From Candidatus Kapaibacterium sp. (GTDB lineage: Bacteria; Bacteroidota; Ignavibacteria; Kapaibacteriales; HRBIN21): 64,000 bases of DNA. Below are positions 21,712 to 27,288 of this stretch, one piece after another. Each line of letters opens with the position of its first letter. Within the stretch, counting starts at the first letter, position 1. The notes beneath the pieces are model-generated. The model ran no database searches, was not told the DNA's origin, and worked only from the letters and a program-made list of their open reading frames with translations. Location of the stretch: NCBI GenBank assembly GCA_938084565.1, contig CALKEU010000004.1, forward strand, positions 1-64,000, read 5' to 3'. The position numbers and the translations under genes were made by a program.

Positions 21712-22984
21712 GGCTATGCACCCTCCGATCAGCCCCAACGATGACCACAATACCGAGCGCATAAAGGGTCTCCATCCCCACGTAGACGGCCGCCACCGCC
21801 ATACCAGCCCACCATTGGAAGCCCCAGAGAGCCACCAGCACTCCCAGCCCCAAAACCACTGCTGCCCATCCGACAACGACTCGCTGGTAGCGCGAGAAGG
21901 TCAACGCATAGGATTCGGCTACATGGGACAACATGACCCCGGGGAGCGCCCACCCCATCAGTTGCAGCATTGGCACTGCCTCTGGAATGCGGAAGGTTAA
22001 CTCTATCAGCCACGGTGCCGTGGCATGGAGCAGAGCCGCCAGCGGGAGTCCCACCACCATGCTGAGCCCCAGAGCCCATTGCACACGAAAGCTCTCTGGA
22101 CGCTTCGTAAACTGGGGCAGAAAGACGCGGAAAAAGGCGTTCGGGAGCATACGCAACACCACCACAAATCGTTGTGCTGCCGAATAGGCCCCGAGAACCG
22201 TCGCTGCTGCCCCGACCCATCCCAGCAACAACACGCCAAAGCGCATGTAGCCGATTGTGAGTATCCCGAGCACAATCCAGTACCACCGTTGCCGGAGTGT
22301 TGAAAGGACCGCGCAAGCCGTCTGGCGCCAGCCCACCGAGCAGACCTCCCGTACAATTTCCCCAAGGTACATCCGCCACGGCGACCAATCCGGCTCCCGT
22401 TGCCGGAGGAGCCTTCCGGTCCATATCCACATCGGCAGCGCAATGCCGAATCCATGAACGAGGATCACACCTGGCAGAGGAAGGCCCATCACTATTGCCC
22501 CGATCCCCCCGAGGGCACCGAGCACCGTACTGACAGCGATGATGCTCCCCAATGCCGTCATCTGCCCCAATCCGTGGAGCGCTGCGGTATAGCTGCCGAC
22601 CCAACTGTGCAGGAGTGTCACGGTGAAGGCAGCTACCGTTGACAGTATCGCATCTTCGCGCCCGAGGAAGAGCGTCAGCCCCAAGCCGAGAGGAACGCCC
22701 ACAAGCGCTAGATACCACTTGGCACGCTGCGTCTGCTGCAGTGGTGCCGCAATGCGCCCTGTACGGGCTACCTCCTGTGGTAGCGTGATTGCAAAGTTGG
22801 CCTCTACAACTAACTGCAGGAGCAGCCCTTGCGCCATGCTGAAGGAGAACAACCCCAGCTCCTCCGCACCGCGCATGCGCGCCAACACAATCGAGAAGAC
22901 CACCGCACCGACTACTCCCAAGCCATCCGCCAGCAGGAAGGCCCCAACCGATCGAAGGAGCTCCCCAAGTGAACGCTGTGCCAT
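21668..22984 (-). CDS. Polysaccharide/lipid-linked oligosaccharide flippase (MATE/Wzx-like)
   Basis: This protein of 438 residues has about 12-14 membrane segments and almost no soluble domains. The opening (LLADGLGVVGAVVFSIVLARMRGAEELGLFSFS) is the typical Wzx/MurJ-superfamily start, in which an inner-membrane flippase moves undecaprenol-linked sugars across the membrane. No glycosyltransferase cluster surrounds it, so its substrate is not indicated. I chose ATG 22984 rather than 23047, because the upstream part of the frame runs through tRNA-Asn. Confidence 0.8.
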   Translation of the reverse strand: MAQRSLGELLRSVGAFLLADGLGVVGAVVFSIVLARMRGAEELGLFSFSMAQGLLLQLVVEANFAITLPQEVARTGRIAAPLQQTQRAKWYLALVGVPLGLGLTLFLGREDAILSTVAAFTVTLLHSWVGSYTAALHGLGQMTALGSIIAVSTVLGALGGIGAIVMGLPLPGVILVHGFGIALPMWIWTGRLLRQREPDWSPWRMYLGEIVREVCSVGWRQTACAVLSTLRQRWYWIVLGILTIGYMRFGVLLLGWVGAAATVLGAYSAAQRFVVVLRMLPNAFFRVFLPQFTKRPESFRVQWALGLSMVVGLPLAALLHATAPWLIELTFRIPEAVPMLQLMGWALPGVMLSHVAESYALTFSRYQRVVVGWAAVVLGLGVLVALWGFQWWAGMAVAAVYVGMETLYALGIVVIVGADRRVHSHAQLVESTGQIREG

Positions 22985-23002
22985 TGTTTCGAGCAGAGGC
23001 AG

Positions 23003-23010
23003 TATTTTCG
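23003..23010 (+). promoter_or_regulatory. Putative tRNA-Asn promoter box TATTTTCG
   Basis: TATTTTCG resembles TAnnTTTG with one change, and the same TTCG variant precedes the SRP RNA and thyX. It would start RNA near 23014, about 19 bases before the tRNA. Confidence 0.4.
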
Positions 23011-23032
23011 CGTCCGCATTGACGTATACCCT

Positions 23033-23108
23033 TCCACGGTAGCTCAACGGTTAGAGCACCTGGCTGTTAACCAGGGGGCTGTGGGTTCGAATCCCACCCG
23101 TGGAGCCA
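23033..23108 (+). tRNA. tRNA-Asn (GTT), CCA encoded
   Basis: A full cloverleaf is visible. The 7-bp acceptor pairs TCCACGG at 23033-23039 with CCGTGGA at 23098-23104. The anticodon stem is CCTGG/CCAGG with loop CTGTTAA and anticodon GTT at 23066-23068, and the T-arm contains GTTCGAATC. Discriminator G23105 is followed by genomic CCA. An intrinsic terminator lies immediately downstream. Confidence 0.98.
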
Positions 23109-23113
23109 GCCGA

Positions 23114-23147
23114 GGGGCAGTGGTATGGCACTGCCCCTTTTCTTTTT
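23114..23147 (+). terminator. Rho-independent terminator of tRNA-Asn
   Basis: A perfect 9-bp stem (GGGGCAGTG at 23114-23122 with CACTGCCCC at 23129-23137) has a 6-base loop and is followed by TTTTCTTTTT. Confidence 0.95.
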
Positions 23148-23161
23148 CCCTCCACAGCGGC

Positions 23162-23188
23162 TCAAGTCTGCTGCCATTGGGCCGATAT
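23162..23188 (+). promoter_or_regulatory. Sigma-28 (FliA)-type promoter of motAB
   Basis: TCAAGTCT at 23162-23169, then exactly 11 bases, then GCCGATAT at 23181-23188. The flagellar sigma-28 consensus is TAAAGTTT-N11-GCCGATAA, so 13 of 16 positions and the spacing agree. Transcription would start near 23195, leaving a leader of about 75 bases before motA. Confidence 0.75.
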
Positions 23189-23268
23189 ATTGTGCGGCAA
23201 ACCCAACGCACGTGGGTGGCCACGCCTTCGCATAGAAAACGGCTAAAGAGCACAGGAACACTCGAGAG

Positions 23269-24123
23269 ATGTTTGTACTCATCGGACTCGTCATCGTCTT
23301 TGTCAGCATCATCCTGGGCTATACGATGCACGGCGGCCAGCTGCTCGTGCTCTTCCAGATCAGCGAATTCCTCATCATTGGCGGAGCAGCGCTGGGCTCG
23401 CTTCTGATTGCTAATCCTCCCGATCTCCTCCGCCGGATTATGCGCGGGGTTCTGAGCACGCTGCGGGGCAATCGCATCTCGAAGGCTGCCTATGTGGAAC
23501 TGCTGCAGTTCCTCTATGAAATTCTGCAGCTGGCCAAGCGCGAAGGGCTCATTGCTCTCGAGCGCCATGTCGAAGACCCCGCAAACAGTCCTCTCTTCAC
23601 TAAGTATCCCACCCTCATGGCAAACCCCCACGCTGTCGCCTTCTTCTGCGATACGATGAAGGTAGTGCTCAACGGCGGGATTCCCCCGCACGACCTGGAA
23701 GACCTCATGGAACTTGATCTGGAGACGGTCCATCAGAAGGAGGCACGTGCGCCCGCAGCCGTCATCACCGTTGCGGATGCTCTCCCAGGGTTGGGGATTG
23801 TGGCAGCTGTACTCGGCGTTGTCATTACGATGGGGAAGGTGGATCAACCCCCAGAAGTTGTCGGCCACAGTGTTGCTGCGGCGTTAGTGGGCACTTTTCT
23901 GGGCGTGCTGCTCTCGTACGGGGTCGTCGGCCCGATTGGACGGAATCTAGAAAACCTGACGCTGGCCGAGCAGCGCTATCTCAACTGCATCAAAGCCACG
24001 ATCTTGGCCTTCGTCAAAGGTGCCCCTCCAGTGATTGCCATCGAGTACGGCCGCCGAGCCATCGATCCGGACTTCCGCCCCAGCTTCCAGGAGACTGAAG
24101 AAGCCCTGAAACGAGGACGCTAG
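23269..24123 (+). CDS. motA: Flagellar motor stator protein MotA
   Basis: MotA and MotB form the proton (or sodium) channel that drives flagellar rotation. The 284-residue protein has four membrane segments in the family layout. Two are at the N-terminus (VLIGLVIVFVSIILGYTM, and FLIIGGAALGSLLI), followed by a large cytoplasmic loop, and two near residues 165-220 (DALPGLGIVAAVLGVVITMG, and VGTFLGVLLSYGVVGPIGRNLE). The conserved prolines are in these last two. It is close to the E. coli MotA type. motB follows after 3 bases. A sigma-28-type promoter lies upstream. Confidence 0.95.
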   Translation: MFVLIGLVIVFVSIILGYTMHGGQLLVLFQISEFLIIGGAALGSLLIANPPDLLRRIMRGVLSTLRGNRISKAAYVELLQFLYEILQLAKREGLIALERHVEDPANSPLFTKYPTLMANPHAVAFFCDTMKVVLNGGIPPHDLEDLMELDLETVHQKEARAPAAVITVADALPGLGIVAAVLGVVITMGKVDQPPEVVGHSVAAALVGTFLGVLLSYGVVGPIGRNLENLTLAEQRYLNCIKATILAFVKGAPPVIAIEYGRRAIDPDFRPSFQETEEALKRGR

Positions 24124-24126
24124 CGC

Positions 24127-25068
24127 ATGGCCGAGCCACGCCGCGAAGAACCCATCATCATTCGCAAGCGCCGCCGTGGTGAACACGGGACCCACCACGG
24201 TGGAGCATGGAAAGTAGCCTACGCCGATTTCGTCACCGCCATGATGGCCTTCTTCCTGGTGATGTGGATCATGCAACTGAGCGAATCGGCCCGGAAGGCC
24301 ATTGCAAGCTACTTCAACGAACCCGGCGCATTTAGCTTTCTGACGGGCAAAGCACTCCCGATCGATATCCAAATGCGCCCTGCCCGCTACGTGCTGGACA
24401 AGGGCACCGACTACTACGACAACTTCTCCGAACGTGGCGGACCATACCAGCCCTTCCCCATCGGGATTGGGTCTGCCAGTGTAAGCCCGGAACAGTGGCA
24501 GCAAGCACGGCAGGATAGCGCCCGAGCAGCACACCGACTCGAGCAACTCCAACAGGAACTGCAGCAGATGCTCCAACAGCTTGCCTCCACTCAGCCCGAG
24601 CTCGGAGAACTCCTGGGGTCCCTGCGTCTGGAGATGACCCCTGAAGGACTGCGCATCGAGCTCCTGGAGACCCGGGAAAATCTCTTCTTTCACGTCGGGA
24701 GTGCAGAACTGCGCCGCCCAGCTGTCCAGCTCCTCCAACGGCTGGCACCTGTGCTGGGCAAACTCCCCAATTACATCGAAATTGAAGGTCACACCGACAG
24801 CCGCGCCTACTCCCCAACATCCCCCTACACGAACTGGGAGCTCTCAGCTGACCGGGCCAATGCCGCCCGGCGCGTCTTGGAGAACTCTGGCCTCTGGGAC
24901 GGCCAGGTAAGCAGTGTCATCGGCTTTGCAGACCGCAAGTTGCGCTTGCGAGAAAATCCCTTCGACCCCTCGAACCGGCGTGTAAGCATCCTTGTGCGCC
25001 GGCTTACAACAGCCGATTTCGTCCGTCTCATGCAGCTCCAGCGGGATACCTCTGCTGTAACACCATGA
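24127..25068 (+). CDS. motB: Flagellar motor stator protein MotB
   Basis: MotB anchors the stator to peptidoglycan. The 313-residue protein has a basic N-terminus and one membrane segment containing the proton-carrying Asp (VAYADFVTAMMAFFLVMWIMQ). It then has a periplasmic plug/linker with a Gln/Leu-rich coiled coil around residues 120-155. A C-terminal OmpA-like peptidoglycan-binding domain follows (IEIEGHTDSRAY..., and LSADRANAARRVL). Its stop overlaps the start of the response-regulator gene (ATGA), so the regulator is translated with the stator. Confidence 0.96.
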   Translation: MAEPRREEPIIIRKRRRGEHGTHHGGAWKVAYADFVTAMMAFFLVMWIMQLSESARKAIASYFNEPGAFSFLTGKALPIDIQMRPARYVLDKGTDYYDNFSERGGPYQPFPIGIGSASVSPEQWQQARQDSARAAHRLEQLQQELQQMLQQLASTQPELGELLGSLRLEMTPEGLRIELLETRENLFFHVGSAELRRPAVQLLQRLAPVLGKLPNYIEIEGHTDSRAYSPTSPYTNWELSADRANAARRVLENSGLWDGQVSSVIGFADRKLRLRENPFDPSNRRVSILVRRLTTADFVRLMQLQRDTSAVTP

Positions 25069-26249
25069 GCCCGGTGACCATCCTTTTAGTCGACGACCAG
25101 CCGAGTGTGCTAGCAGCTTTGGAACACACCCTGAAAGCCCTCTTCCCGCACATGCGCATTCTGCTGAGCGCTTCTGCCGAAGAAGCCTGGGACCTCGTCC
25201 GCTGCCACCGGCCGGATATCGTGCTCAGCGACATCATGATGCCAAGCGGCATGAGCGGATTCGAGCTGTGCGAACACATCAAAGCCGATCCTCAGCTACA
25301 GCAGACATACGTCATCCTCATGACAGCCTTCACTCCCCAGGAATGGCAATTCCCATCAGAGAGCCGTCCTGATGCCTTGCTGCACAAGCCCTTCCACGTG
25401 CTCGAACTCCGCGACAAGCTAGAAGCTGCTCTGCGGACTCTCGAGCTCCGTCGGCAACGACTGCTTCCGGAGTCCGAACCTGTTGCCGATGCCATCGATA
25501 TGCGCAGTTTTGTCGGAGCTCTTGTGCGGCTTCGCTCACCCCAACTGGAAGAGCTGGCAAACAATCTCAGCAGGGCTACTCAGTGGCTCAGTCAACATGC
25601 CGAGGAGCTCACCGAATCCGAACGCCACGCCGCCCAATGGTTTGGCTATGGGTACATCCTCGGCCGACTCACCCTGCCGGACTCACTCCTCTACGAACCT
25701 CTCACCCGCGGAGGCTACCTCAGCCACGAGCTTATGATCCAAGTTCCCCTGGGCGCTGCGAGTGTCTGCCGCTATCACCCGCAACTGTCCCTTCTGAGCC
25801 CGATTTTGTCTTCGCTTGCAGAAAACTGGGATGGCTCGGGCTTTCCGGAGCACCGCCGAGCGTGGGAAATACCACTTGCTGCCCGCCTCTTCCGGTTAGC
25901 CGTCGACTTTGAGGAGATGCTCTGGCTCTCCCCCCAACCTCCTGCGATAGTGGCTGCCTACTTGGAGCGCTATGCCCGACAAGCCTACGATGCTCACCTT
26001 CTGCCTCTCATCTCCCAGTATGCCGAACTGCGCGAGAGCCGCAGTGATATCCTCGCCGTCGGCCTGCATGAGCTCCAGCCGGGTATGGTGTTAGCACACG
26101 ACCTGCGGACTCGGACAGGCTTGACGCTCGCCGCTGCAGGGACCGTCCTCACGCCCCAGCTCATCGAGCGCTTGGCGCGGCTTCACACCAATGACCCTAT
26201 CGTCGGGGTTATCCTCGTCCGCCGTCCTGCCGAACCCCCTCCAGCGTAG
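25065..26249 (+). CDS. Response regulator: REC receiver plus degenerate HD-GYP-like domain
   Basis: This 394-residue protein has an intact N-terminal receiver domain. The acidic pair is D10-D11, the phosphoacceptor D56 is in VLSDIMMP, the switch Thr is T87 and the conserved Lys is K108. The middle and end resemble an HD-GYP phosphodiesterase (LTLPDSLL near 202, AENWDGSGFPE near 252, IPLAARLFRLAVDFEEM), but metal ligands are lost. The HDIGK position reads GYGYI, the next His is Pro (MIQVPLG), and the HHE before WDGSG is gone. It is unlikely to hydrolyse c-di-GMP and more likely acts by binding a nucleotide or protein. Overlap with motB implies a role in motility control. Its 3' end overlaps the convergent gene by 41 bases. 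Confidence 0.82.
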   Translation: MSPVTILLVDDQPSVLAALEHTLKALFPHMRILLSASAEEAWDLVRCHRPDIVLSDIMMPSGMSGFELCEHIKADPQLQQTYVILMTAFTPQEWQFPSESRPDALLHKPFHVLELRDKLEAALRTLELRRQRLLPESEPVADAIDMRSFVGALVRLRSPQLEELANNLSRATQWLSQHAEELTESERHAAQWFGYGYILGRLTLPDSLLYEPLTRGGYLSHELMIQVPLGAASVCRYHPQLSLLSPILSSLAENWDGSGFPEHRRAWEIPLAARLFRLAVDFEEMLWLSPQPPAIVAAYLERYARQAYDAHLLPLISQYAELRESRSDILAVGLHELQPGMVLAHDLRTRTGLTLAAAGTVLTPQLIERLARLHTNDPIVGVILVRRPAEPPPA

Positions 26250-27288
26250 CGACACGCGCCCGAGCGAACATATCAGCCCATCGGCGCTGCGAACGCTGTC
26301 TCCACACCCCACGATGGTAGACGTAGCCGACCAAGAGCGGAAGCGCCAAAGTCGCTTCGCAGAAGACCATCTGCTCATAGGTGCTCTCCACCTTCCCCCA
26401 AGAGCTTGCCTCTCGCAGTGTGGAACCAGAAAGGCCCCCGTCCCGCTCGTCGGCTACAGTAATCTGGATGGCGTATTTGTGCATGGGGACCGATGCACCG
26501 ATGACGTCGGCTGCAACGACGACATCCTGCGCAAAGTTCTTCGGGACCCCTCCCCCGACCATCACCAGTCCCGTCTGCTGTGCTTGAACCTTGAGGTAGG
26601 TCAGCTCACGGAAATCCTTCACTGAGTCGATGGCTACGTGATGCTCAGGATGGCGGTGTTGGTGTAATACCAGCCCGAAACCTGCCGAGCAATCGGAGAA
26701 GGCCGGCACAAAGATGGGAACCCCCTGCTCATAGGCCGCCCGTACGATGGAACCGTCTCCGAGCCCCTGTTCAACCAAGTATTGGCCCATTGCAGCGATG
26801 AACTCCCGTGAGCTATACACCCCAGGCGGCAGCTGCTCGGCAATACGAGCAATAGTGTGGTCGCACACCCGCAGCTCCTCCTCATCGATGAAGGTGTCGT
26901 AGATGCGATCGATCATGAGCTGACGGAGCTCATCGTCATCGACCCGAGGCGAGCCCTGGTAGTGGCGGAAGCCGAGCGCCTCAAAGAAATCCTGATCCAC
27001 AATAATGGCACCGGTGGAGACAATCACATCCACCATGCGACAGCGAATGGCCTCCACCAGCACCCGGCGAAGGCCGGCACTGACCAAAGACCCCGCCAGA
27101 CAGAGGATCACTGTGCACTGCTCATCCTGGAGCATCTGCTCGTAGATCTGAGCAGCTCGATGGAGATTGCGCGCCTGGAAAGCCGTCCGCCCCATGGCCT
27201 CGAGCAGGGGAGCAATGTCGGGATAACGGGTAATGTCGATGTGTTCAACGACCGCCTCGGGGCGGAGGTAAGAGCTCTTGTCTGGCAT
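26209..27288 (-). CDS. Deoxyhypusine synthase family protein (bacterial, probably polyamine-related)
   Basis: The 359-residue protein shows the NAD-binding deoxyhypusine synthase fold: ILCLAGSLVSAG, VIVSTGAIIVDQDF, VPIFVPAFSDCS, GLVMVGGGVPKNF, and the catalytic-lysine motif SSWGKV with K299. Bacteria lack eIF5A, so members of this family are thought to act on polyamines, for example as homospermidine synthase. The substrate here is not known from sequence. It lies 62 bases downstream of the gene run containing gmhA... in fact upstream of gmhA on the minus strand, so it would be transcribed before gmhA only if they share a promoter near 27290-27350, which I could not locate. It converges with the response regulator. 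Confidence 0.82.
   Translation of the reverse strand: MPDKSSYLRPEAVVEHIDITRYPDIAPLLEAMGRTAFQARNLHRAAQIYEQMLQDEQCTVILCLAGSLVSAGLRRVLVEAIRCRMVDVIVSTGAIIVDQDFFEALGFRHYQGSPRVDDDELRQLMIDRIYDTFIDEEELRVCDHTIARIAEQLPPGVYSSREFIAAMGQYLVEQGLGDGSIVRAAYEQGVPIFVPAFSDCSAGFGLVLHQHRHPEHHVAIDSVKDFRELTYLKVQAQQTGLVMVGGGVPKNFAQDVVVAADVIGASVPMHKYAIQITVADERDGGLSGSTLREASSWGKVESTYEQMVFCEATLALPLLVGYVYHRGVWRQRSQRRWADMFARARVATLEGVRQDGGRG

Follow-up and report, generated by a model that had tools for sequence, protein, structure and literature searches.

A predicted sigma-28 promoter upstream of motAB in a Candidatus Kapaibacterium genome and related sites at other flagellar operons

The motAB locus and its upstream site

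The stretch of DNA analysed here (hereafter the window) covers 64,000 nucleotides of a contig from Candidatus Kapaibacterium sp. and carries motA, motB and a response regulator gene in tandem, preceded by a tRNA-Asn gene and a terminator-like hairpin (Table 1). The response regulator is probably encoded in one operon with motAB, unlike the situation in E. coli and Salmonella. In our reading against the HD-GYP motif, its HD_5 domain seems to be devoid of the usual HD/HH residues, so that the protein may act as a sensor of c-di-GMP and have no enzymatic role. The regulator was compared across 11 of 25 motA loci. In contigs from three genomes of the same genus (L047-L049 from G005, G004 and G002), motA is followed by motB and a full-length response regulator, while locus L050 shows a 30% match across nearly the whole protein. 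At L051, L052, L053 and L071, the match (~30%) covers the protein only from residue 118-153 onward and may correspond to other HD proteins; no match was found in L054, L060 and L065. The nearest named relatives of MotA come from MAGs bearing the labels Bacteroidota bacterium, Candidatus Kapaibacterium sp., Bacteroidetes bacterium, Candidatus Kapabacteria bacterium KatS3mg039 and Chlorobiota bacterium; judged from these labels, the genome is probably Kapabacteria-like. A bacterial protein of the deoxyhypusine synthase family is encoded convergently with the motAB operon.

Table 1. Features of the motAB region (window positions) and features at other loci (locus:positions)
Feature	Position	Strand	Support or remark
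tRNA-Asn(gtt)	23033..23108	+	ARAGORN; upstream neighbour of the motA site
Terminator-like hairpin and T tract	23112..23139	+	Hairpin scan; behind tRNA-Asn
Sigma-28-type -35 element, TCAAGTCT	23162-23169	+	Before motA
Spacer	23170-23180		11 bases
Sigma-28-type -10 element, GCCGATAT	23181-23188	+	Before motA
motA	23269..24123	+	TIGR03818 MotA1, 360 bits, cut-off 304
motB	24127..25068	+	MotB plug and OmpA domains; starts 3 nt past motA
Response regulator	25065..26249	+	Receiver and HD_5 domains; 4-nt overlap with motB
Deoxyhypusine synthase family protein	26209-27288	-	PF01916, 333 bits
motA2	L018:7320-8018	-	Behind flgL
motB2	L025:4697-5961	+	With fliW
CHASE-PAS histidine kinase	L019:3679-5862	-	Also L200, L202, L204, L205
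Large PAS/GAF histidine kinase	L022:4690-9018	-	13/16 site 28 nt upstream
Glycosyltransferase with TPR repeats	L209:9342-11638	+	Sigma-28-type site at C14:35342; also in G004 (L203)
G003 fliA match	L198:3384-4167		Frame broken near residue 226
G003 hook-operon box	L214:3033-3059		GCCGATGT

Between the hairpin and motA, the two octamers and their spacer match 13 of the 16 positions of the E. coli FliA consensus TAAAGTTT-N11-GCCGATAA (PMC2859248), and the site ends 80 nt ahead of the motA ATG. The sequence-only reading had proposed a sigma-28 promoter before motAB on these grounds, and its coordinates, spacer length and match count are all correct. Both octamers and their spacing thus conform to the general form of a sigma-28 promoter (TAAA(GTTT)-N11-GCCGATAA-like). 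When the 160-bp stretch was shuffled 3000 times with its dinucleotides preserved and both strands were scanned, a match of 13/16 was reached only twice. We also scored the window with a 19-row weight matrix built from the fliC, motB2, flgF and flgN sites of the genus, from which motA sites were excluded and in which a single flgN site is represented four times. The motA site obtained the top score in the window with 23.4 bits, the runner-up having 12.7 (a gap of 10.7 bits).

Sites at flagellar operons in the genome and its genus

As a check, the sequence-only reading suggested looking for the same motif before fliC and other late flagellar genes, and the motif is indeed found before fliC and other flagellar operons. 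A search of the whole genome with the E. coli consensus (up to 3 mismatches) returned 10 places versus 3 for the reversed control pattern. Five of them precede fliC, motA, motB2-fliW, the flgF operon and flgB-flgC-fliE-fliF-fliG; two are ahead of histidine kinases (C3:65046 and C1:113899, the latter also overlapping the end of the preceding gene), and three fall within unrelated coding sequences. A genome-fitted pattern gave 17 matches versus 13 for its control at up to 3 mismatches and was considered mostly noise at that level; its two matches with a single mismatch are motA and flgN. The sites before flgN-flgK-flgL-motA2 and fliK-flgD-flgE were obtained from the fitted pattern or from the matrix. 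At a threshold of 12/16, a site is present in 8 of 309 upstream regions (250 nt each, taken from crudely called ORFs in stretches of this genome totalling 396,165 bases), a rate that is biased because many of these stretches were picked for matches or flagellar genes. These eight belong to motA, fliC, motB2, flgF, fliK, two histidine kinases and one glycosyltransferase. The flgB (13/16) and flgN (12/16) sites were scored apart since the ORF caller had missed the gene starts. Altogether, seven of the nine tested leads of flagellar operons reach at least 12/16, the flhF (9/16) and fliP (8/16) leads being below, and no site precedes fliP-fliQ-fliR-flhB-flhA or flhF-flhG-fliA in this genome.

Family searches support the identity of MotA, MotB, MotA2, MotB2, FliA, FlgI, FlgE, FliF, FliG, FlgC, FliP, FlhA, FliS, FlaG, FlgN, FliW and FlgK, and of FliI as a flagellar/type III-type ATPase. 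They also support FliK, whose match is just above its cut-off, FlhF and FlgH, whose matches are below, and FlgL, FlgF and FliD, which missed their specific cut-offs. FlgB has a sub-threshold family match only, and FlgG, FlgA, FlgJ, FlgD, FliE, FliQ, FliR, FlhB and FlhG were named from gene order and reading of the translations. The fliC gene is split across two contigs, C6 and C15, which have 141 identical bases in common at their ends; fliS, fliD, flaG and a FlgM candidate of 86 residues (20.9 bits, under the cut-off of 25) follow it on C15, and another weak FlgM match lies on C1 (L034). MotA2 and MotB2, both encoded behind sigma-28-type sites, possibly form a second stator set in which MotB2 is the partner. 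The glycosyltransferase listed in Table 1 is perhaps involved in flagellin glycosylation.

Within the genus (genomes G000-G005), the sites are largely conserved at orthologous positions. In 5/5 genomes, they were found before fliC (13-15 of 16), motB2 (12-13 of 16), flgF (13 of 16) and flgN (400-432 nt before flgK), and likewise 37-49 nt upstream of the CHASE-PAS histidine kinase. The hook operon fliK-flgD-flgE also has GCCGATA and a 12-13/16 site in 5/5 genomes. The flgB site, located 89-111 nt before the gene, is present in 4/5 genomes (13 of 16 in G000, 12 in G005, 11 in G001 and in G002) with a weak -35 half in three of them; G004 displays the -10 element GCCGATAC but no recognisable -35. 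Both the flgB and hook scans relied on a matrix made without any flgB or hook site. The flgB site of the genome under study lies inside or just ahead of a divergent ORF of unsure start, MerR-like in our own reading, and part of the site conservation may therefore stem from that gene. A sigma-54-like string before flgB was dropped because its second element is poor. G003 (98% complete) gave no match to flagellin, motA or flgF and none to motB2 over its full length, while fliK, flgD and flgE matches are retained, the hook-operon box is altered and the fliA match breaks frame (Table 1). These features point to an apparent loss of the flagellum, although the break in fliA could also result from an assembly error.

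The motA1 site is found in 4/4 genus genomes having the gene (10-13 of 16), no motA1 match being present in G001 and G003. Its -10 octamer reads [GT]CCGATA[CT] in all four and is kept while much of the flanking stretch diverges; its -35 half is weakly kept in the relatives, and the G005 site fits a spacer of 11 or 12 equally well. This degeneracy, together with the lack of a site seen before motA outside the genus, is what could speak for a chance match, in which case read-through or a housekeeping promoter would account for the transcription of motAB. Such an explanation is improbable. The hairpin between the tRNA and motA would insulate the operon from tRNA read-through; terminator-like sites are hardly enriched in 22900-26400 (3 versus a shuffle mean of 2.0, weak evidence alone), but the position of this one fits. 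Concerning possible housekeeping promoters, the window contains 18 copies of the TAnnTTTG string (6 on the + strand and 12 on the - strand) but none within 23000-23300, and a sigma-70-type scan of 22900-26400 gave no + strand match ahead of motA. Besides, preservation of the -10 octamer amid diverging surroundings speaks against a fortuitous box, and the matrix score of the site was reached by none of 5000 shuffles of the stretch and none of 200 shuffles of the whole window.

Distribution beyond the genus

In the order as a whole, a FliA match with an E-value of 1e-40 or better is present in 69 of 119 genomes, 61 of them above the family cut-off. The statement of the sequence-only reading that flagella are rare thus applies to Bacteroidota at large (PMC10576277, PMC12199754) but not to this order. 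Site counts at up to 2 mismatches exceed the control in families f1 (11 versus 3) and f4 (50 versus 22). No excess is seen in f3 (447 versus 538), where FliA is found in 41 of 50 genomes; base composition may explain these numbers, four f3 loci having a measured G+C content of 28-34%. The other FliA-bearing families show no clear excess (f5, 6 versus 6; f6, 6 versus 9; f8, 14 versus 22; f9, 62 versus 84; f10, 8 versus 7), and the two families without a FliA match gave 27 versus 35 (f2) and 65 versus 43 (f7). Since FliA-bearing families beyond f1 and f4 lack an excess and FliA-less f7 has some, we rejected the order-wide counts as support for the regulon as a whole; alone, they prove nothing outside f1 and f4.

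In f4, 42 of the 50 matches (in 40 stretches) were examined, of which 20 precede fliC (9), motB2 (7), flgK (2), fliS (1) or flgE (1) and 22 are not ahead of such genes. Of two more f4 loci, L128 has a site at fliC and L126 has none; locus L115 of f6 also carries a site ahead of fliC. No convincing site was found upstream of motA in other Kapabacteria, Chlorobiota and Bacteroidetes loci (the best at L050 being 10/16), and none of 17 loci from other phyla had a motA upstream match above 11/16. The matches before motA at L051, L052 and L071 (13/16) and at L053 (11/16) were discarded, as in our own reading they fall in upstream TPR coding sequence at HLGDNY-like codons.

FliA recognition and the extent of the regulon

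The genome encodes FliA (213.7 bits, cut-off 189.6), as the sequence-only reading would require, and this cognate sigma factor has conserved DNA-reading regions. Its gene lies behind an FlhF-like gene and then a gene read as flhG. The protein aligns (E 1.2e-38) to chain F of 6pmi, a solved structure of E. coli FliA, and the aligned stretch with TYALVRIRGAILDELRKLDWLSRSARR belongs to region 2.4. That the box is read by a second FliA-family sigma factor encoded on C16 instead of FliA is very improbable: this second TIGR02479 match exists (120.2 bits) but lies under the cut-off, the FliA gene is the one that adjoins an FlhF-like gene, and weak TIGR02479 matches are common in control genomes (10 of 14, with only 3 above cut-off), which lowers the probability of this candidate. 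FliA alone is no proof of motility, as 41% of non-motile genomes have a match (PMC12199754).

It is thus highly likely that positions 23162-23188 form the promoter of the motA-motB-response regulator operon and that it is read by RNA polymerase carrying FliA. Region 4 of FliA would contact TCAAGTCT and region 2.4 would contact GCCGATAT, with transcription predicted to start ~7 nt downstream of the latter, near 23195. The site would belong to a FliA regulon, and be timed with it, that comprises at least fliC together with the genes that follow it, flgN-flgK-flgL-motA2, motB2-fliW and the flgF operon. As far as its sequence tells, the site before motAB is an ordinary sigma-28-type promoter, resembling the FliA-dependent motA promoter of E. 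coli and Salmonella in its octamers, its 11-bp spacer and its motAB target. In E. coli, motAB is a class 3 operon. The "proteobacterial-like" recognition put forward by the sequence-only reading is however not specific to Proteobacteria, as sites of this type also serve in Bacillus, Clostridioides and Leptospira (PMC3865298, PMC12655853). SigD sites of Bacillus and Clostridioides have the same -10 class (TAAA-N13-16-GCCGATAW), and SigD-like sites also precede motA and fliQ in C. difficile (PMC3865298). In Leptospira, sigma-28 motifs were reported ahead of fliS and of genes for the flagellar sheath and core (PMC12655853), a similar case of sigma-28 sites at flagellar genes outside Proteobacteria.

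The sites found here are not confined to post-hook genes as in a classical class 3 regulon, judged on the sites only; they also occur before the flgF operon, fliK-flgD-flgE and flgB-flgC-fliE-fliF-fliG. Those at basal-body and hook genes are less expected, and are well conserved at the hook operon and looser at flgB. Whether the sites before fliK-flgD-flgE and flgB-flgC-fliE-fliF-fliG are active is a separate and less certain claim. In E. coli, FliA ChIP gave no signal near flhBAE, fliE and fliFGHIJK (PMC4183435), whereas a site precedes the operon of fliE and fliF here. The contrast is nevertheless one of extent, because E. coli FliA reaches some middle operons and drives fliLMNOPQR (PMC4183435). 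In C. difficile, the genes that are regulated by SigD and carry such a site include two early flagellar ones, while the mapped start of flgB has a SigA-like promoter (PMC3865298), which differs from the sigma-28-type site at flgB in this genus. Unlike the sites described here, basal-body or hook targets are not named for Leptospira in the available text of PMC12655853.

Tentatively, and with rather more doubt than confidence, these sites may be read as a sigma-28 control of nearly the whole flagellum in this genus, including the MS ring, FliG, rod, P and L rings, hook, hook-filament junction, both stators and filament. All operons examined would then be covered except the export gate fliP-fliQ-fliR-flhB-flhA and flhF-flhG-fliA. 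As a master switch, FliA would already be active ahead of the hook checkpoint, and the FlgM candidate encoded behind the fliC genes would provide late feedback rather than the classical gate by FlgM secretion. This extension is made less probable by the flgB sites, given their weak -35 halves and the divergent ORF at that place.

In the available part of PMC10576277, flagellar genes are scarce in Bacteroidota MAGs, being present in three of four Ignavibacteriales MAGs and absent from the other Bacteroidota MAGs of that study, a set in which Ca. Kapabacteria are included. Flagellar and chemotaxis genes were however reported in one Ca. Kapabacteria genome (PMC7509429), flagellar genes of 'Ca. 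Thermonerobacter' (Bacteroidetes/Chlorobi) are expressed in situ (PMC6338057), and Roseithermus is listed as having a FliA gene (PMC7409140). The available parts of PMC3930126 and PMC7064773 contain nothing on this lineage, and no account of a Kapabacteria sigma-28 regulon was found among the openly licensed literature.

To conclude, these sites make the flagellar regulon of an uncultured lineage close to Bacteroidota readable, and the sigma-28 code appears to be kept there. If the sites at basal-body and hook genes are active, the timing of flagellar gene expression in this group would depart from the textbook order.
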